Shown: positions 1,766-35,559 of the stretch, one piece after another
Position numbering within the stretch: the first letter of the stretch is position 1
Layout of the letters: the number at the start of each line of letters is the position of its first letter
Source of the DNA: Cellulomonas shaoxiangyii
Lineage (GTDB): Bacteria; Actinomycetota; Actinomycetes; Actinomycetales; Cellulomonadaceae
Assembly (NCBI RefSeq): GCF_004798685.1
Contig: NZ_CP039291.1
Coordinates: forward strand, 2,418,001 to 2,482,000
Direction: 5' to 3'
DNA length: 64,000 bases
Position numbers and translations under genes: made by a program
Notes under the pieces: generated by a model
What the model was told of the DNA's origin: nothing
The model's database searches: none
The model's input: the letters and a program-made list of their open reading frames with translations, nothing else

Positions 1766-3373
1766 TCACGCGCCGCTCCAGCGCAGCCAGTCGAGGTAGG
1801 CGGAGTACCGCTGGTGGGCGTACTTCAACGCGAGCGCGTCCTCCCACACGTCGCCGTGCAGCTTGGTGGTCGACTGCCAGCGGGCGAGCAGGCCCTCCAC
1901 GTGCGCGAGGCGCGCGCGGACGGTCCGCTCGTCGACGCCGTCGAGGCCCCGCGCGAGCTCGGCCAGCACGTCGCCGACCGGGTCGTCGCCGTCGAGGCCG
2001 GCGGTGTCGTACTGGCGGCACGCCGCGTCGAACATGTCGCGGACCCACGACACGCGGTCCGTGCGCAGCGGCTCGCGCTCGGGGTCGTCGAACGCCGGTG
2101 CCTGCAGGTCCGGCTGGAGCTTGTCGTGCAGCACGAAGGGCAGCACGCCGCGCAGGTCGTCGAGCGTGACCTCGGCGTTGCCGCGGAAGTACGCCATCGC
2201 CTTCGCGTAGGCGATGAGCGACTGCAGCGCGCGCACCGACAACCCGTTGAGCGTCTGCGCGCCGACGTCCTGCGTGCGGTCCCGTCCGTCGTCCGCCGCG
2301 GCCAGCAGGTGCGGATCCACACCGGCGAGGCGCGCCGTGTCCTTGGTGCGGTACTCCAGCTGCCACGCGGCGCGCTCCAGCAGCTCGAGCTGCGCGGCGA
2401 AGTGCTCGAGGCGGCGCCGCACGGGCGCGGGGAACGGCACCCGCAGCACCTCGGCGTGCAGGCGGTCGTGCTCGTCGGCGTCGAACACGATGCCGGGCGG
2501 CACGTTCTCCTCGGGACGCAGCCGGCGCTCGGCGCGCGTCACGAGGTCGCCGAGGAACCGGCTGTTGAACGACAGCGCCTTGACGACCACGTCGATCCGG
2601 TCGCGCAGGGCGTCGACGACCTGGAACGTCCCCCCGCCCGCGTCGTCGTTGGCGGTGAGGTACCAGGCGGACGCACCCGTCTCGTAGATCTGGTCGAACA
2701 CCTCGACGTAGCCGTCCGCGAGGACCGTCAGCAGCGCCGACTGCGTGCGGGTGGGGATGCGGTTGTACTCGTCGACGATCTTCACGCGCATGCCCAGCCA
2801 CGAGCGCCACGCGACGTCGATGTCCGACAGCCTCTCGGCGCCGATGAGGTCGCGCGGCAGCGGCGTCCCGAACATGTCCTGCACCGTCAGCTGCGGGTGC
2901 CCGTGCTGCATGGCGCGGCGCACGTCGCGCACCGGGTAGCCGGCGATGACGCCCATGAGGACGGCCGAGGCGGTCTTGCCGCGACCCGGCCCGCCGACCA
3001 GCAGGCAACGGCCCCGCACCGCGAACGTGAGCAGCGGCAGCAGGACGAACGACGAGTACGACTGGTCGGTCGGCAGCTCGACGGCCGCCCGCGAGTCGCC
3101 GACGCGGTAGGTCGTGCGCGGGCGCGCCGCGTCGTGGAACTCGAGGTCGTAGTGCGGGCTGATGATCGCGTGGTTGACCATCCAGAAGTACGCCTGGCGC
3201 AGCTTCTCGTCGAGCGGGGTGCCGGCCGGTGCCGCGGAGCCCACGGACGCGTCGGCGAACAGGTGCGCGACGTCCAGCGCGACGTCGGCGCCGTGGCGGG
3301 AACGTGCGCCCGCCCTGGTCGGGGCCGCGGAGACGTGGGTCAGGCCGGGGTCGCCGGCGGGCTCGTCGCTCAC
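1766..3373 (-). CDS. MoxR-type AAA+ ATPase
   Basis: 535 residues. The AAA+ core has Walker A GGPGRGKT at about 127-134, a Walker B/DExx equivalent DEYN at 201-204 and a sensor-1 stretch YLTAND some 45 residues later. This is the MoxR style (VDEYNR rather than DDAA). The C-terminal third is helical and charged, larger than in minimal MoxR proteins (about 320 aa), as in MoxR members that work with VWA and other partner proteins. MoxR ATPases act as chaperones that remodel or load metal into partners. The start is the GTG overlapping the nadR stop (GTGA); its own stop overlaps a GTG for the next gene. It is likely cotranscribed with pnuC-nadR upstream and the metallopeptidase downstream. Confidence 0.8.
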   Translation of the reverse strand: MSDEPAGDPGLTHVSAAPTRAGARSRHGADVALDVAHLFADASVGSAAPAGTPLDEKLRQAYFWMVNHAIISPHYDLEFHDAARPRTTYRVGDSRAAVELPTDQSYSSFVLLPLLTFAVRGRCLLVGGPGRGKTASAVLMGVIAGYPVRDVRRAMQHGHPQLTVQDMFGTPLPRDLIGAERLSDIDVAWRSWLGMRVKIVDEYNRIPTRTQSALLTVLADGYVEVFDQIYETGASAWYLTANDDAGGGTFQVVDALRDRIDVVVKALSFNSRFLGDLVTRAERRLRPEENVPPGIVFDADEHDRLHAEVLRVPFPAPVRRRLEHFAAQLELLERAAWQLEYRTKDTARLAGVDPHLLAAADDGRDRTQDVGAQTLNGLSVRALQSLIAYAKAMAYFRGNAEVTLDDLRGVLPFVLHDKLQPDLQAPAFDDPEREPLRTDRVSWVRDMFDAACRQYDTAGLDGDDPVGDVLAELARGLDGVDERTVRARLAHVEGLLARWQSTTKLHGDVWEDALALKYAHQRYSAYLDWLRWSGA

Positions 3374-4548
3374 GCGTCGGAGTGTGGCACGCGGTCGGTC
3401 GTTGCCCCGGGCAGCGCAGCCCGGGTGTCGCGCGCCCCCGTGCGCGCCCCGACGACGCGACCGTCGACGATCCGCACCGCGTCCCCGCCGAGGTGCACGA
3501 CGTCCCCGTTGGCCTGCGGCATCGGGTCGGCGAGCGGTCGCGGCGTCGCGAGCAGCGGGCGCACGAGCGCGGCCGCCGCCTCGAGCCGGGTCGCGCGGTC
3601 GCCCCGCAGCTCGACCCACGGGGCGCCGCCGGCCGCCGCCTGGTCGGCGAGCACCTCCCGGAACCGGTCCTGCATCGCGTGCCGGACGTGCTCGCCGTCG
3701 CGCAGGCCGTCCTGCACGAACGGGATCTCGTCGCCCGTGAGCAGGTACAGGTCGGGCACGCGCGCCGCCGCGAGCGCGCGGACGCTGGGCGAGGGCGTGC
3801 CGACGTAGCGCTCGTGCCAGAGCGTCGTGGCCAGGACGTCGGTGTCGCAGACGAGCAGCGGGACGGGCGTGCGGCGGGCCGCGTCGTCCTCCCGGCGGGC
3901 CTGCTCGCGCGCGACCAGGTCGAACTCGGCCGTGTGCCACGGGGCGTCGAGGCCGCCGGGACGCTCCGCCGACCACTCGCGGCCGAACTCCGCGACGGCC
4001 GGCAGCCCGAACAGGGCCGTGAGGTCCTCCGCGAGCGTCGTCGTGCCGGTCGACTCGGCGCCGGTCACGACGACACGGCGCACGTACCAGGCGCGCACGG
4101 GCGCCGGCAGGGCCCACCAGTGCGCGGCCGGGTCGGCCCGCACGGCCGTGCCCGAGACCGGCACGCCCCGGCGTCCCGGGTCGGCCTGGAGCCACGTCGC
4201 GCCGAGGCGCCGGGCGAGCTCCGCGCCGTACGCGTCGGACGTCGCGACGGCGTCGACGGGCGCGTCGAGCAGCGACCGCATCACGGCGACGTGCGCGTCC
4301 CACGCGGCCGGGTCGGCGTAGTCCACCGGTGCGTCGTCGAGGCCGTGCACGACGTGCGCGGTCGGCAGCTCCTCGCGCAGCCACGCGGCGCGGGTCTCGG
4401 CCGGCAGCGACTCCGCCGACGACGCGAGCACCTGCACGGTCACGCGGTCGCACCGCGCGAGGGCGTGCCGGACCAGGGCGAGGTGGCCGGCGTGCGGCGG
4501 GTAGAACTTGCCGATCACGAGGCCGTGGCGGTACCGCCGCTCGCTCAC
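3370..4548 (-). CDS. nadR: Bifunctional NadR-like nicotinamide-nucleotide adenylyltransferase / ribosylnicotinamide kinase
   Basis: 392 residues. The N-terminal nucleotidyltransferase domain begins GKFYPPHAGH (about 13-22; the GxFxPxHxGH motif) and has an SGTAVR stretch, the counterpart of ISxTxxR, near residue 136. The C-terminal P-loop kinase domain starts near residue 165 with GAESTGTTT, where the usual Walker A lysine is replaced by threonine. As I recall, this form is common in actinobacterial NadR-like proteins. Together the domains phosphorylate nicotinamide riboside and adenylate NMN to NAD+. No N-terminal HTH repressor domain is present, unlike enterobacterial NadR. It overlaps pnuC upstream and the MoxR gene downstream by GTGA, so NAD-precursor salvage and the MoxR module appear to share one message. 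Confidence 0.85.
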   Translation of the reverse strand: MSERRYRHGLVIGKFYPPHAGHLALVRHALARCDRVTVQVLASSAESLPAETRAAWLREELPTAHVVHGLDDAPVDYADPAAWDAHVAVMRSLLDAPVDAVATSDAYGAELARRLGATWLQADPGRRGVPVSGTAVRADPAAHWWALPAPVRAWYVRRVVVTGAESTGTTTLAEDLTALFGLPAVAEFGREWSAERPGGLDAPWHTAEFDLVAREQARREDDAARRTPVPLLVCDTDVLATTLWHERYVGTPSPSVRALAAARVPDLYLLTGDEIPFVQDGLRDGEHVRHAMQDRFREVLADQAAAGGAPWVELRGDRATRLEAAAALVRPLLATPRPLADPMPQANGDVVHLGGDAVRIVDGRVVGARTGARDTRAALPGATTDRVPHSDA

Positions 4549-11029: not shown

Positions 11030-12046
11030 ATGCCCCCGCGCGCCCGCACCCTGCTCGTCACCGCCCTGCTGCCCGTCGCCGCCCTCACCGCGTGCGCCGA
11101 CGGGAGCGCCACCTCCCCCGCCACGCCGTCGGGCGGCTCGTCGTCCGCCGCGGCCTCGCCGACGGCCGGCTACCCCGTGACCGTGGACAACTGCGGCACC
11201 GAGGTCACGCTCGAGCGGGCGCCCGAGCGCATCGTCACGATCAAGTCCTCGACCACGGAGATGGTCGCCGCCCTGGGCCTGGCCGACCGGCTCGTCGGCA
11301 CGGCCTTCAGCGACGGCCCCCCGCCCGAGGCGTGGGCGGACGCCCTCGCCGACGTGCCCGTCCTGTCGGACAAGGTGCCCGGCCAGGAGGCGCTGCTCGA
11401 GGTCGAGCCGGACTTCGTCTACGCCGGCTGGGAGTCGAACTTCGCGCCCGACGCGGCGGGCGACCGGGCGACGCTGGCGCAGCTCGGCATCGGCACCTAC
11501 GTGTCGCCGGCCGCGTGCAAGGAGGAGGGCTTCCAGCCCGACCCGCTGACGTTCGAGGCGGTCTTCAAGGAGATCCGCCAGACCGGTGCCCTGCTCGGCG
11601 CGCCCGACGCGGCCGAGGACGTGGTCGCCGAGCAGCAGGCGACGCTCGACGCGGTGGAACCGCTCGACGGCCCCACGGCCGTGTGGTGGTCGTCCGGCAC
11701 GGACACCCCGTATGTCGGCGCGGGCATCGGCGCACCGCAGATGATGCTCGAGGCCGCGGGCATGACCAACGTCTTCGCCGACGTGCACGACACGTGGTCC
11801 TCGGTCGGCTGGGAGCAGGTCGTCGCGGCGGACCCTGACGTGCTGGTCCTCGTCGACTCGGCGTGGAACACCGCGGACGCCAAGAAGGCGGCGCTCGCGG
11901 CCAACCCCGCGACCGCGCAGCTCACCGCGGTGCGCGAGGGCCGCTACGCCGTCGTCCCGTTCGCCGCCTCCGAGGCGGGCGTGCGCAACGCCGACACGGT
12001 GGCGGACCTCGTCGACCAGGTGCGGGCGCTGGGCGTCGGCGCGTGA
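11030..12046 (+). CDS. Proposed coenzyme F420-0 ABC importer, substrate-binding lipoprotein
   Basis: 338 residues with an N-terminal lipoprotein signal (ALTAC, Cys near residue 20), then a low-complexity Ser/Thr/Pro linker and a class III binding fold (BtuF/FepB type: ERIVTIKSSTTEMVAALG at the first lobe, DPDVLVLVDS in the second). Alone it could be read as a haem, B12 or siderophore binder. The adjoining permease, ATPase, cofD remnant and cofC match the gene neighbourhood of the family proposed to import F420-0; that assignment is known only as a computational proposal. The ATG at 11030 is chosen because it opens the signal peptide. Confidence 0.7.
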   Translation: MPPRARTLLVTALLPVAALTACADGSATSPATPSGGSSSAAASPTAGYPVTVDNCGTEVTLERAPERIVTIKSSTTEMVAALGLADRLVGTAFSDGPPPEAWADALADVPVLSDKVPGQEALLEVEPDFVYAGWESNFAPDAAGDRATLAQLGIGTYVSPAACKEEGFQPDPLTFEAVFKEIRQTGALLGAPDAAEDVVAEQQATLDAVEPLDGPTAVWWSSGTDTPYVGAGIGAPQMMLEAAGMTNVFADVHDTWSSVGWEQVVAADPDVLVLVDSAWNTADAKKAALAANPATAQLTAVREGRYAVVPFAASEAGVRNADTVADLVDQVRALGVGA

Positions 12047-12058
12047 CGCGCCGCTGAC

Positions 12059-13096
12059 GTGACACCCGTGGACCGTCCTCCCCTGCGCCCGCCCCTGGTG
12101 CTGCTGCTCGCCGTAGGGCTCGCCCTGCTCGTCGTCAGCCTGCTCGTCACCGTGACGATCGGTCCCGCGGACCTGTCCGTCGCGGAGGTCGCGCGCGCGG
12201 TCGGCGGCCACCTGGGGCTGCCCGTGGCGGACGTGTCCCGGCTGCACGACGCGATCGTGTGGGACCTGCGCCTGCCCCGCGTGCTCACGGCGGCGGCCGT
12301 CGGGGCGGGTCTCGCCGTCTCGGGCGCGGTCATGCAGTCCCTCACGCGCAACCCGCTGGCGGACCCGTACCTGCTCGGGCTGTCGTCGGGGGCGTCGCTC
12401 GGGGCGGTCGCGGTGCTCGTGGTCGGCGTGGCGGTGCTGCTGCCGGTGGCGGCGTTCGCGGGCGCGCTGGCCGCGCTGGTCGCGACCCTGACGCTCGCGC
12501 GCACGAGCGGCACCCTCACACCGTCGCGCGCCGTGCTCGCGGGCCTCGCGGTGTCGCAGCTCGCGGCCGCGGGGACGTCGTTCGTCATCTTCTGGAGCGC
12601 GACCGGCGACTCCTACCGGGAGATCCTGTCGTGGCTCATGGGGTCCCTCGCCGGCGCGACGTGGTCGTCGGTCGCGATCGCGGGCGGCGGGCTCGTGGTG
12701 GTCGGGTCGGTGCTCGTGGCGGCGGCGACGCGGCTCGACGCGTTCGCGTTCGGGGATACGTCCGCCGCGGCGCTCGGCATCGCGGTCGACCGCACGCGCT
12801 GGACGCTCATGACGCTCGTCGCCCTGCTGACGGGCGCGATGGTCGCGGTCAGCGGCGCGATCGGGTTCGTCGGGTTGATCCTCCCGCACGCGGTCTCCGT
12901 GGTGACCGGGCCGGCGCACCGGCGCCTGCTGCCCGTCGCGGCGGTCACGGGGGCGGTGTTCCTGGTGTGGGCGGACACGCTCGCGCGCACCGTGTTCGAC
13001 CCGCGGGAGCTGCCGGTCGGCATCGTCACGGCGCTCATCGGCGTGCCGGTCTTCGCGGTGCTGCTGCGCCGGGGGCGGGGGACGGCGTGGAGCTGA
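12059..13096 (+). CDS. Proposed coenzyme F420-0 ABC importer, permease (FecCD family)
   Basis: 345 residues with about nine to ten hydrophobic helices. It carries the FecCD/BtuC landmarks: an early LRLPRVLTAAAVGAGLAVSG segment, NPLADPYLLG, and the coupling region GAIGFVGLILPH near residue 265. It starts with GTG 12 bp after the binding-protein stop; its own end overlaps the ATPase start by 10 bp. Confidence 0.8.
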   Translation: MTPVDRPPLRPPLVLLLAVGLALLVVSLLVTVTIGPADLSVAEVARAVGGHLGLPVADVSRLHDAIVWDLRLPRVLTAAAVGAGLAVSGAVMQSLTRNPLADPYLLGLSSGASLGAVAVLVVGVAVLLPVAAFAGALAALVATLTLARTSGTLTPSRAVLAGLAVSQLAAAGTSFVIFWSATGDSYREILSWLMGSLAGATWSSVAIAGGGLVVVGSVLVAAATRLDAFAFGDTSAAALGIAVDRTRWTLMTLVALLTGAMVAVSGAIGFVGLILPHAVSVVTGPAHRRLLPVAAVTGAVFLVWADTLARTVFDPRELPVGIVTALIGVPVFAVLLRRGRGTAWS

Positions 13097-13890
13097 GGAT
13101 CGACGGCGTCGCGACGCGCCTGGGCGGCCGGTGGGTCGTCGACGGCATCGACGCCACTCCCCCGCCCGGCGCGCTCACGGGCCTGCTCGGGCCCAACGGC
13201 GCGGGCAAGACGACGCTGCTGCGCCTGGTCGCCGGGCTCCTGCCACCGGAGCGCGGCGCGGTGCTCGTCACCGACCCGGACGCGCCGTCCGGCGCGCCCG
13301 CCGTCCCCGTGCACGCCCTGCCCCGCCGCCGCCGCGCCCGGCACGTCGCGCTCCTCGAGCAGGAGTCGAACGCGACCGTCCCGCTCAGCGTGCGCGAGGT
13401 CGTCGCGCTCGGGCGCATCCCGTACCGCTCGCTGTGGGGCACGGACGTCGACGACGGCGCCGTCGACCGCGCGCTCGGCGCCGCGTCGGCCGCGCACCTG
13501 GCCGACCGCGCCTGGTCGACGCTCTCCGGCGGCGAGCGCCAGCGCGTGCAGATCGCGCGCGCGCTCGCGCAGGAGCCGGACCTGCTGCTGCTCGACGAGC
13601 CCACGAACCACCTCGACGTCAGCGCCCAGCTCTCGCTGCTCGCGTTCGTCCGCGACCTCGGCGTCACCACCGTCGCGGCGCTGCACGACCTCAACCTCGC
13701 CGCGGCGTTCTGCACGCACGTGCTGGTGCTGTCCGAGGGCCGGCTCGCTGCGGCGGGCGCGCCGGCGGACGTCCTGACGCCCGCGCTGCTGCGCGCCGTC
13801 TACCGGGTGGAGGCGGAGGTGCTGCGGCACCCGACCACCGGGCGCCCGGTGATCGCGCTGACCGGCGGCAGCGCGGAGGCAGACCGGTGA
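13087..13890 (+). CDS. Proposed coenzyme F420-0 ABC importer, ATP-binding subunit
   Basis: 267 residues: Walker A GPNGAGKT (near 36), signature LSGGERQR, Walker B LLLLDEPTNHLD and switch His in ALHDLNLA, as in FecE/BtuD-type importers. The GTG start lies within the permease gene. Its stop overlaps a GTG (GTGA) that opens the cofD remnant, so coupling runs from the importer into the F420 genes. Confidence 0.8.
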   Translation: MELRIDGVATRLGGRWVVDGIDATPPPGALTGLLGPNGAGKTTLLRLVAGLLPPERGAVLVTDPDAPSGAPAVPVHALPRRRRARHVALLEQESNATVPLSVREVVALGRIPYRSLWGTDVDDGAVDRALGAASAAHLADRAWSTLSGGERQRVQIARALAQEPDLLLLDEPTNHLDVSAQLSLLAFVRDLGVTTVAALHDLNLAAAFCTHVLVLSEGRLAAAGAPADVLTPALLRAVYRVEAEVLRHPTTGRPVIALTGGSAEADR

Positions 13891-14084
13891 GGGTCACCGT
13901 GCTGTCGGGCGGCGTCGGCGGCGTGCTGGACGCGTGGCTCGTCGACGACGCGGACGCCTCCGCCGTGCCCGCGCTGCGCTCGGACGGCTGGACGGTCGCG
14001 GCCGCGCCGACCCTCATGACGGACGTCCCGGCGACCGCCGCGATCGCCGCCCGCGCCCTGGCCCTCGTGGACCGCCTGCCGTGA
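13887..14084 (+). pseudogene. cofD: Internally deleted cofD (fbiA) remnant, still in frame
   Basis: 65 codons. Residues 1-12 (VRVTVLSGGVGG) are the N-terminus of 2-phospho-L-lactate transferase CofD/FbiA. From residue 13 the text jumps to the CofD C-terminus: VLDAWLVDDADA, then a PTLMTD motif and a terminal helix. I compared this with my memory of mycobacterial FbiA, which has GGVGGARF at its start and ILDCWLV with PLLMTD at its end, about 320 residues in all. Some 250-260 central residues, holding the FO- and GDP-binding parts, are missing. The frame, the GTGA overlap with the ATPase gene and the GTGA overlap with cofC are kept. A catalytically active product is not credible. Assembly collapse is the main alternative to a real deletion. 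Confidence 0.8.
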
Positions 14085-14722
14085 CCGGCTGGTGGGTCGT
14101 CGTCCCGGTCAAGGACGCCCGCCGCGGCAAGACGCGCCTCGCCGGCGTCCTGGACGACGCCGCGCGCACGGCGTTGGTGCGGTCGATGGCGCTGGACACG
14201 CTCGCCGCCGTGCTGGCCGCTCCCTCGGTGGCCGGCGCCGTCCTCGTCACGGCCGACCGCGACCTCGCCGCGGCCGCCCCGGGGCTCGGCGTGGTGCCGC
14301 TCGACGAGCCCGCCGCCGCCGCCGCGACGCACGCCGGCGAGGCCGGCCTGGACGCGGCCGTGCTCGCGGGCGCCGCGCACGCGCGCGGCCTGGCCCCGCA
14401 CGCGCCCGTCGCCGTGGTCCTGGGCGACCTGCCGCGCCTCGACCCCACGGACCTCGACGCGGCCCCGGCGTCGGCGGCGGGGCACGCTCGGGCCCACGTG
14501 CCCGACGCGGCGGGCACCGGCACGACGCTCCTGACCGCGAGCACGGGACGCACCCTGCGACCCCGGTTCGGGGCCGGCTCGTCGCACCGCCACGCGGCGG
14601 CCGGGCACGTCCGCCTCGACGTCCCGCGGTCCTCGTCGCTCCGCCACGACGTGGACCACCCCGCCGACCTCGTCCTCCTCGCAGGTCAGGACGCCTGGCC
14701 GTCCGCGCTGCCCGAGAAGTAG
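14081..14722 (+). CDS. cofC: 2-phospho-L-lactate (or phosphoenolpyruvate) guanylyltransferase CofC/FbiD
   Basis: 213 residues. CofC landmarks are present in order: PVKDARRGKTRL near the start (nucleotide-binding loop), LVTAD, GDLPRLDP (metal-binding), a GTGTT loop, FGAGSSHRH and a terminal LRHDVDHPADL. It activates phospholactate or PEP with GTP for transfer to FO by CofD. The protein looks intact although its partner gene immediately upstream is only a remnant. The GTG overlaps the remnant stop. The 3' end overlaps the convergent TetR gene by 37 bp. Confidence 0.85.
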   Translation: MTGWWVVVPVKDARRGKTRLAGVLDDAARTALVRSMALDTLAAVLAAPSVAGAVLVTADRDLAAAAPGLGVVPLDEPAAAAATHAGEAGLDAAVLAGAAHARGLAPHAPVAVVLGDLPRLDPTDLDAAPASAAGHARAHVPDAAGTGTTLLTASTGRTLRPRFGAGSSHRHAAAGHVRLDVPRSSSLRHDVDHPADLVLLAGQDAWPSALPEK

Positions 14723-15369
14723 TCGATCAGGCCCGACCGCACCTGCAGGTAGAGCGAGCGCGTCGAGGTCCCCTCGCCGCGCACGGCCCGGCGTGCCCAC
14801 TCGTCGTAGGCCAGCCGCACGGAGGTGCCGATCGCGGTGACCACGGTCCGGGCGCGGATCTCGTCGACGTGGGGCGGGTCGCCGGCGCGCAGGACGAGGG
14901 TGGTGAGCTCCTGCACGTGCTCGTCCTCGAGGGCGAGGGCGCGGGCGAGCAGGCCCGGGTCGGCGAGGACCAGGCGACGCACCCGCAGGACGCGGGCGTG
15001 GCCCTCGGGGGGATCCGCGTCGAAGGCGTCGATCTGCGCGAGGTAGGCCTGCTCGATCGCGCGGATGACCGTGGGTGCCGTCTGGTCGACGGCACGCACG
15101 CGCGCGACGAGCCGTTCCATGGCGTCGTCGTCGACGAAGAGGGCGTTCTCCTTCGTCACCGCGTGGCGGTAGAAGGTGCGCGGGGCGATGCCGGCGGCGT
15201 CGGCGATCGCCTCGCACGTGGTGGCAGAGACCCCCTGGCGCTCGAAGAGGTCGAGCGCGGCGTCGGCGATGGCGCGCCGCGTCTCGCGGCGGCGCTGCTC
15301 CCGCGGGCCGTCGTGGGCGCGGGAGGCGTCGCGGGCGCCGTGGGCGTCACGCTGCCGGTCGTCGAGCAT
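14686..15369 (-). CDS. TetR-family repressor
   Basis: 227 residues with an N-terminal TetR helix-turn-helix: RRAIADAALDLFERQGV, then TTCEAIADAAGIAPRTFYRH at about 45-64, and an all-helical ligand domain. It is divergent from an MFS drug-efflux gene with a palindromic operator between them, the standard repressor/pump pair. ATG 15369 was chosen over GTG 15375, two codons upstream. The 3' end runs antisense into cofC. Confidence 0.85.
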   Translation of the reverse strand: MLDDRQRDAHGARDASRAHDGPREQRRRETRRAIADAALDLFERQGVSATTCEAIADAAGIAPRTFYRHAVTKENALFVDDDAMERLVARVRAVDQTAPTVIRAIEQAYLAQIDAFDADPPEGHARVLRVRRLVLADPGLLARALALEDEHVQELTTLVLRAGDPPHVDEIRARTVVTAIGTSVRLAYDEWARRAVRGEGTSTRSLYLQVRSGLIDYFSGSADGQAS

Positions 15370-15400
15370 CCGCACAGTGTCACATCACGTGGACCGATAT

Positions 15401-33760: not shown

Positions 33761-34561
33761 TCAGCGCTCCTCGGCGGCGAGCGCGTCCTTCCAGCCCTGC
33801 GCGTACGCCTCCGCGGACCCCTGGTGGAACATGTCGTCGGGGCCGGTGCGGACCAGCAGGCGCGCGCCCGGACCGTCGTCGTCCGTCACCACGTGGCCGA
33901 GGCCGCGCACCACGGCGACGGGACGCCCCGACGCCTTGCCCTTGACGAGCTCGGCGGCGCTCGCGACCTCGTCGGCCACGGCGGCGACGGTCATCGTCAG
34001 CGGGCGGCCGAACGTGTCGAGCTGCCCGCGCAGGTCGTCGAGCACCTGCACGCCCGCGGCGCCGATCGCGAGGTCCGTCACGCCCTGCCGCCACGGCCGC
34101 CCGGCGGTGTCCGTGACCAGCACCCCGATCCGCACGCCGAACGCCGCCGCCAGCCCCGCCCGCAGCGCGCGCGCCGACGCGTCGGGGTCCACCGGCAGCA
34201 GCAGCACCGTGCCCTCGGGGGTGTTCGACGCGTCGACCCCGGCCGCCGCCATGACCAGGCCGAGGTGGTTCTCGACGATCCGGGTGACCCCGCCCGGATG
34301 CTCGCGTGTCGCGACCACCCGCACCGTCTCGTCGGTGATCGCCCGCTCGCGGTCGTCGGCGGCGACCACGCGCCCCTCGGCCTTGGAGACGACCTTGCTG
34401 GTGACCACGAGCACGTCCCCGTCGGCGAGCGCGTGCGACGGCTCCGCGTCCGCGTCCGTGCGCAGCGCCGCCGTGAGCAGCGCGACGAGATCGTCCCCGG
34501 GGACGACCTCCGGCACGCCGTCGGGCGCCCAGACGCGCAGCTCGCCCACCCCTGCGGTCAC
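33761..34561 (-). CDS. cofE: Coenzyme F420-0:L-glutamate ligase CofE
   Basis: 266 residues. CofE landmarks: a Val/Pro-rich opening ([14 protein letters not shown]), [21 protein letters not shown] (about 44-64), [17 protein letters not shown], the [20 protein letters not shown] motif (about 127-146) with metal/GTP residues, and [13 protein letters not shown]. It adds gamma-linked glutamates to F420-0. The C-terminal FMN-reductase domain of FbiB is absent. GTG 34561 overlaps the stop of the F420-dependent dehydrogenase (GTGA). Together with the F420-0-type importer 20 kb away this fits salvage of F420-0. Confidence 0.9.
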
Positions 34562-35559
34562 CGCGCCAGCTTCGGCAGCACGTCGCGCCCGAAGACCTCG
34601 ATCCACTCGCGCTGGTTGCGGCCGACGTTGTGCAGGTAGATGCGGTCGAAGCCGAGGTCGACGTACTTCTGGATCTCGGCGCGGTGCACGTCCGGGTCGG
34701 CGGAGATCACCATGCGGCCGGTGAAGTCCTCGGGCCGCACGAGCTTGGCCATCTGCTCGAAGTCGAACGGCGAGCGGATGTCGGCCTTGGGGAACTTCAT
34801 GCCGCCGTTGGGCCACTCGTGCATCGCGTTGGCGAGCGCCTGCTCGTCGGTCTCGGCCCACGAGAGGTGCAGCTGCAGGACCTTCGGCATGGTGTCCGGG
34901 TCCTTGCCGGCCTCGCGCGCACCGTCGGCGAACTTGCCGAACAGGCCGGAGATCTTCTCCAGCGGCGCGCCGACCGTGATGATCCCGTCCGCGTGCTTGC
35001 CGGTGCGCTTGGCGGTGACCGGGCCGGCGGTCGCCACGAGGATCTCGGGCGCCTCCTCCGGCATCGTCCACAGGCGCGTCGACTCGAGCTTGTAGAACTG
35101 CCCGGCGTGCTTGACGTCCTTGCCCGCGAGCGACGACGAGAACAGCTTCTTGATGACCTCGATGGCCTCGAACATGCGGTTGATGCGCTCGGGCGCCTCG
35201 GGCCAGTACCCCGCCACGACGTGCTCGTTCAGGGCCTCGCCGGACCCGAGCCCGAGCCAGTGCCGCCCGGGGTACATCGCCGCGAGCGTCGCGGAGGCCT
35301 GGGCCACCATCGCGGGGTGCCAGCGGAACGTCGGCGCCGTCACGCCCGGGCCCATGTCGCCGCTGGTGCGCTCACCGATCGCGGTCAGCACGTTCCACAC
35401 GAACGACGACTGCCCCTGTGCGGGCACCCACGGCTGGAAGTGGTCGGCGGCCATCACGCCGGAGAACCCGTTCCCCTCGGCGTACGCCGACAGCTCGACC
35501 GCCTCGCGCGGGTGGAACTGCTCCAGCATCGCCGCGTACCCGATCGTCAACCCCGACAC
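34558..35559 (-). CDS. F420-dependent glucose-6-phosphate dehydrogenase-family oxidoreductase (LLM fold)
   Basis: 333 residues of the luciferase-like F420-dependent family. Features: [20 protein letters not shown] (about 36-55), the [14 protein letters not shown] [16 protein letters not shown] near 100-113, and [18 protein letters not shown] near 172. FGD and its relatives hydride-transfer from a substrate to F420. The exact substrate is uncertain: the family also contains hydroxymycolic acid and other dehydrogenases. Coupled to cofE downstream. Confidence 0.85.

Follow-up and report, generated by a model that had tools for sequence, protein, structure and literature searches.

How does an F420 operon come to hold, in the place of cofD, a reading frame of only 65 codons, and where would such a cell obtain its F420? 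This question is raised by Cellulomonas shaoxiangyii, from which a stretch of 64,000 nucleotides (the window) was analysed; the genome that bears it is referred to as G000 and the compared genomes by further G-numbers, with G206 as the sister and G187 as the next relative. The operon lies on the forward strand in the order substrate-binding protein, permease, ATPase, stub, cofC. Its first three genes encode a putative F420-0 ABC transporter, namely, the substrate-binding protein (11030..12046; TIGR03868, 463.9 bits, cut-off 392.4; start set by inspection at a lipoprotein-like Met), the permease (12059..13096; TIGR03869, 531.7 bits, cut-off 437.35), and the ATPase (13087..13890; TIGR03873, 379.1 bits, cut-off 372.4; start codon also picked by inspection). 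All three score above the curated cut-offs of this importer cassette, in agreement with a preliminary description of the DNA that had placed an importer of the proposed F420-0 type here. Behind them follow the stub, a micro-cofD (cofD/fbiA; 13887..14084, + strand), and an intact cofC/fbiD (14081..14722, + strand; TIGR03552, 131.4 bits, cut-off 105), the product of which retains the GDLP and DVD segments with their acidic residues when aligned to FbiD (6bwg). Convergent with cofC, and overlapping its end by 37 bases, is a gene for a TetR-type regulator (14686-15375, - strand), whose top-scoring NCBIfam model is MftR, at 68 bits and thus well below the cut-off of 224.9.

Other F420-related genes are found in the window as well. 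The gene for the coenzyme F420-0:L-glutamate ligase, cofE (33761..34540, - strand; TIGR01916, 228 bits, cut-off 180.65; start not fixed), adjoins a gene for an LLM-class oxidoreductase of the F420_G6P family (34558..35559, - strand; TIGR03557, 282.1 bits, cut-off 210.4), which scores higher against the FMN-dependent TIGR03885 (303.6 bits) yet stays below the cut-off of that model (398.7). This pair (33761-35559, - strand) lies about 19 kb from cofC. Elsewhere in G000, two PF04075 matches exceed the cut-off of 22 (169.4 and 29.9 bits). Among plasmid records, none covers 80% of the operon (best 7%), and a scan of viral contigs yielded no relative of cofC.

The stub ORF has a GTG start, 65 codons, and a TGA stop. 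Its residues 1-12 read VRVTVLSGGVGG and its residues 13-65 VLDAWLV...LVDRLP. The CofD of the sister genome (327 aa) reads MRVTVLSGGVGG, then ARF...RRADGG, then VLDAWLV...LVDRLP, and the stub corresponds to the two outer segments: the head matches residues 1-12 of this protein, and the tail is identical to it at 48 of 53 residues (90.6%). A custom CofD profile built from 55 relatives aligns with the tail over positions 274-328 of 328 (69.8 bits; E 4.9e-22, in a small search set), and the NCBIfam CofD model TIGR01819 detects the tail alone (15.7 bits, E 0.0058), without reaching its cut-off of 257.45; the Pfam search of the stub gave no match. The 12-residue head is below the usable size for profile models and was assigned by identity and position. 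In both G206 (a 370-contig assembly, 78% complete) and G187, which the importer tree places as relatives of G000 with node supports of 0.976 and 1.0, a 327-residue CofD occupies the equivalent place in the operon, with 4-base overlaps on either side (ATGA and GTGA). In G000, the stub start overlaps the ATPase stop (13888-13890) and the stub stop overlaps the GTG start of cofC at 14081, each by the four bases GTGA. The ORF has the features of a cofD deletion remnant in that both its ends are homologous to, and collinear with, CofD/FbiA (the 2-phospho-L-lactate / phosphoenolpyruvate transferase; 6uvx, 3c3d), at an orthologous position in the operon. The earlier reading of the ORF as an in-frame fusion of both CofD ends with the centre deleted, frame and both overlaps being kept, is thereby borne out; its 12-residue head stands, and the tail, given as about 50 residues, is corrected to 53.

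Compared to the CofD of G206, 262 codons (786 bp) are missing from the stub, i.e., residues 13-274. In mycobacterial FbiA (PMC7253369), Asp45 and Asp57 are metal ligands, and the loops 69-102, 145-189, and 239-254 form GDP/FO binding regions; in the alignment to 6uvx, the deleted residues span all of these. Having lost its sites for metal, GDP, and FO, the stub cannot be the transferase and, unlike CofD/FbiA, is not an enzyme. The deletion junction (13916..13923, + strand) reads CGGCGGCG. The left breakpoint corresponds to GTC GGC GG followed by T in G206 and G in G187, and the right one to GAC GGC GGC GTG; a common run of 6 bases, CGGCGG, is seen by inspection in G206 and G187, and of 8 bases in G160. 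This agrees with the proposal that the join lies in GGC/GTC-GGC repeats able to support a microhomology deletion, since the repeat of 6-8 bases falls within Gly-Gly codons that are in the same phase in both copies. A scripted count in one fixed register yields a single base in G206 and G187, owing to their different codon 12; in the same register, at least 6 shared bases were counted in 18 of the 36 scorable full cofDs, and GGC at codon 12 in 30 of 36, the remaining 19 of 55 full cofDs having been left out as they are without the searched motif. For random breakpoints in the G206 cofD, at least 6 shared bases arise in 0.8% of draws and at least 8 in 0.16%. The cofD centre would have been lost by a deletion between in-phase Gly-Gly codon runs, leaving both ends in frame. 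In the G206 cofD, 237 of 383 six-base repeat pairs at least 300 bp apart are in phase, as are 44 of 58 eight-base pairs, and with the codon runs in phase at both ends, selection is unnecessary to account for the kept frame and overlaps.

The preliminary description had suggested that the frame was kept so that the stub couples cofC translation. In a stronger form, the stub would be maintained by selection as a leader peptide or a brief coupling cistron through which ribosomes leaving the ATPase gene reach cofC, with only an in-frame deletion being tolerated. Coupling through the stub is possible, and the intact frame and GTGA overlaps, the conserved tail residues, and an intact cofC under no raised dN/dS on the G000 branch are all consistent with selection for it. 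However, the overlaps are ancestral, as G206 and G187 carry ATGA and GTGA at the same places, and the in-phase Gly codons favour an in-frame outcome by themselves. Moreover, the stub occurs in no other genome searched, CofC without CofD has no known use, and cofC was found above the cut-off in 0 of 14 compared genomes that have the importer and CofE without CofD. Selection for coupling is therefore considered improbable.

Substitution patterns bear on the age of the deletion. In a three-way comparison with G206 and G187, codon changes in the stub tail that are private to G000 are few (5 synonymous and 1 nonsynonymous, versus 9 and 2 in G206). The deletion may thus be young or the tail may be constrained, the numbers being too small to separate the two; a tail without signs of neutral decay also fits a constrained peptide. 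Relaxation of cofC was considered and rejected, as branch arithmetic gives a dN/dS of about 0.24 for G000, 0.33 for G206, and 0.26 for G187. The G000 cofC has 18 private residue changes versus 12 in G206, and its synonymous distances are raised too.

Another reading is that the 65-residue protein has a function of its own, e.g., as a partner of CofC or a binder of a deazaflavin. Both the GGVGG segment near the N-terminus and the conserved tail are retained, and an mBio 2022 paper (PMC8764529) mentions that CofC might channel its product to CofD, but the core of the protein is gone, and no full micro-CofD is found elsewhere in the protein collection searched. The single-sequence AlphaFold model of the stub is too poor to be used (mean pLDDT 49.5, pTM 0.26), which is weak evidence either way. 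Such a function appears extremely improbable.

Whether the allele is real was judged from the assembly and from sequence collections. G000 is a single contig of 3,909,366 bases with a completeness of 100. A search of 5.8 billion proteins gave 6 matches (from 39 candidates), of which the window's own protein is the only full micro-CofD; the other five have 53-109 residues, the longest contigs bearing them measure 698-1,295 bases, and they were set aside as probable contig-end fragments rather than stubs shared by other genomes. The same micro-cofD, which the preliminary description had suggested looking for in relatives, is found neither in the other genomes among the 81 of the genus nor in any other genome of the protein collection. 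That collection lists two contigs for the stub protein; one has the length of this genome, and the second could duplicate the same genome record. An identical partial CofC (residues 84-213, without a start) is present on a separate contig of 68,275 bases, which indicates that a second assembly probably exists; this assembly would presumably bear the stub too. No intact same-species allele is seen, since among the 120 listed of 6,105 matches no intact CofD has a near-identical tail (best listed 48/53). An artefact of assembly or clone, with the strain actually having a full cofD, might be suspected from the high G+C content, and an error limited to the sequenced clone would be compatible with the assembled sequence. 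Against this, the genome is a single contig with a completeness of 100, the stub protein is counted on two contigs, the partial CofC points to a probable second assembly, no near-identical intact tail is among the 120 matches listed, and the breakpoints lie in no long repeat, 8-base repeats not being expected to collapse in assembly. The stub is very probably real, and an artefact very improbable.

A second full cofD and the genes for FO synthesis (fbiC/cofG-cofH) were looked for elsewhere in G000, with CofH as the proxy for FbiC. No further CofD and no CofH/FbiC were found; as to cofD, TIGR01819 gives just one 19.6-bit match (genome positions 1739535-1739681), and the stub protein matches itself alone.

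The 81 genus genomes, in which FbiC was again marked by CofH alone, place this gene set in context. The importer permease exceeds its cut-off in 73 of them, CofE in 76, and CofC in 56. CofD matches other than the stub occur in 59 genomes: 55 are full-length and beside the importer (55 of 73), mostly in FbiC-less genomes, and two are at importer-less loci (G176 and G178); the cofD locus was read in all of the 59 but G156 and G197, and four weak CofD matches (E 0.003-0.01) were dropped. CofH matches are limited to four genomes (G102, G115, G176, and G202; 284-303 bits in frames of 803-884 residues), all below the model cut-off of 374 bits, with matches under 50 bits dropped; three of these (G102, G115, and G202) also have the importer. 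Consequently, CofD without CofH is found in 55 genus genomes, 50 of them with CofC above the cut-off; in G152, G169, G183, and G210 CofC is partial, split, or below the cut-off, and in G155 the match is weak. Fourteen genomes (G127, G131, G144, G148, G151, G163, G164, G171, G172, G191, G195, G208, G211, and G212) have the importer and CofE and neither CofD nor CofC, and G188, G189, G190 (67% complete), and G199 (61% complete) are without CofD, CofE, the importer, or CofC above the cut-off. The fragmented assemblies G175, G166, and G192 were excluded from the clean losses. CofC above the cut-off without CofD is seen only in G000, apart from the 410-contig assembly of G192, which is interrupted at this locus.

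The clean cofC/cofD-less relatives (e.g., G131, G148, and G163) resemble G000 in that FbiC and CofD were not found and the importer and CofE are present, but G000 keeps cofC and both cofD ends, whereas these relatives show no trace of them within up to 4.5 kb following the ATPase gene. This stretch was searched with profiles for remnants in every genome besides G000 that has no full CofD there (17 genomes); only the truncated CofD of G166 was found, the best other CofD match being 1.6 bits. On the importer tree (73 tips), the minimum for cofD loss, that of G000 counted in, is 6 changes by Fitch or 9 losses by Dollo; G166 and G192 were treated as undecided, and the node of G163/G173/G204 is weak (0.416). 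In-frame internal-deletion pseudogenes generally have microhomology at their ends, a kept frame, and untouched neighbours, and structurally the stub is in no way different. It represents ordinary gene decay, and its value is that of an intermediate step of a loss which seems to have recurred within one genus.

The CofD of FbiC-less genomes is a more interesting result than the stub itself. A genome with CofD and without CofH must receive FO from outside the cell, unless it has an FO synthase of an unknown kind, which puts the label of the proposed "F420-0" importer in doubt. That F420-0 is the importer substrate is a database proposal, which the TIGR03868 description reportedly bases on the occurrence of the cassette in several genomes with cofE alone. 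The retention of CofD by 55 FbiC-less Cellulomonas genomes suggests FO salvage, and the 14 genomes with the importer and CofE and without CofC and CofD suggest uptake of F420-0 or F420; the simplest reading of these gene patterns would be one importer family handling both FO and F420-0. In CofD-bearing Cellulomonas, the substrate may accordingly be FO, or FO and F420-0. The genus comparison makes the substrate of the importer testable. A literature search covering mainly freely accessible papers gave no title that deals with salvage of FO through this importer, and in a word search of a FEMS review (PMC8498797) the terms "salvage", "uptake", "auxotroph", and "Cellulomonas" were absent.

The same pattern extends to the family. 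Among 150 genomes, the importer binding protein exceeds its cut-off in 130 and CofD in 109, and CofH matches above 200 bits occur in 23, of which 7 exceed the model cut-off; 96 genomes gave no CofH match. In a cross-table compiled by hand from the match lists, all 23 genomes with CofH have CofD and 17 have the importer; the 127 without CofH comprise 79 with CofD and the importer, 34 with the importer only (including G000 and the incomplete G133, which has pieces of CofD and CofH), 7 with CofD only, and 7 with neither. Thus, 86 of the 109 CofD-bearing family genomes are without a CofH match above 200 bits, and 79 of these 86 have the importer. The seven genomes with CofD and without CofH or the importer above the cut-off are G009, G034, G051, G067, G090, and G100 (genus g10) and G107 (g9). 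Together with G178 of the genus survey, in which CofD, CofC, and CofE are present with no CofH match and no importer above the cut-off, they suggest that there may be a further way of entry for FO.

These surveys alter the view that one operon displays both the loss of de novo F420-0 synthesis and the gain of import. The CofD step is indeed lost, but an importer present in 73 of 81 genus genomes is no recent gain, and the scarcity of CofH (4 of 81) makes it very probable that FO synthesis had disappeared well ahead of the cofD deletion, so that the loss of de novo synthesis as such is not what is seen here. Judging from gene distribution, the importer is older than the deletion, and FbiC was very probably already absent when the deletion took place. 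A wider, tentative scheme, given somewhat less than even odds, is that most Cellulomonas and much of the family make no FO and scavenge the deazaflavins of their neighbours via an importer of FO and F420-0, CofC and CofD being a dispensable module for upgrading the FO so obtained, lost repeatedly; G000 would then be in the middle of a switch from FO to F420-0 scavenging, its cofD recently deleted and its cofC still in place.

For the locus itself, it is concluded with a probability of roughly 0.8 that the stub is a young cofD pseudogene, that F420 comes most likely from imported F420-0 or tailed F420, and that cofC is a relic. Since the known CofD reaction is lost, the cell should not convert FO to F420-0. 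G000, in which no FbiC is found, still has the importer and CofE, together with one or more quinone reductases of the F420H2 type, which makes import of F420-0 or tailed F420 the most likely source. In such an import-dependent state, at which the 14 relatives seem to have arrived by losing both cofC and cofD, cofC could still be translated by coupling through the stub stop overlap, and it should be useless and on its way out. G000 appears caught between states, with cofD dead and cofC intact. Alternatively, the strain may be abandoning F420 altogether, with the importer, cofE, and cofC to follow; G188 and G189, and the incomplete G190 and G199, could be the end point of such a course. This is unlikely, as the importer, CofE, and F420-type enzymes are intact in G000, and the three importer genes have branch dN/dS values of about 0.11-0.16 (by arithmetic).

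Lastly, further irregular cofD loci were observed in the genus. In G166, a 410-contig draft, the CofD at L247 (+ strand, 2932-3777 on) ends at about residue 274, with unrelated sequence after it; this is the zone of the right breakpoint of the stub, and the locus of the close relative G192 is broken nearby as well. In G203 (L241, 6846-8361), whose assembly is 7% contaminated, an intact cofD has, downstream of it, a second C-terminal CofD piece of about 75 residues, flanked by a partial and a full reversed cofC. Contig 5 of G177 (L266, 3205-3330 and 5858-5992) carries an orphan CofD tail of 42 residues and a weak match to a cofC tail (38 bits), far from the operon.
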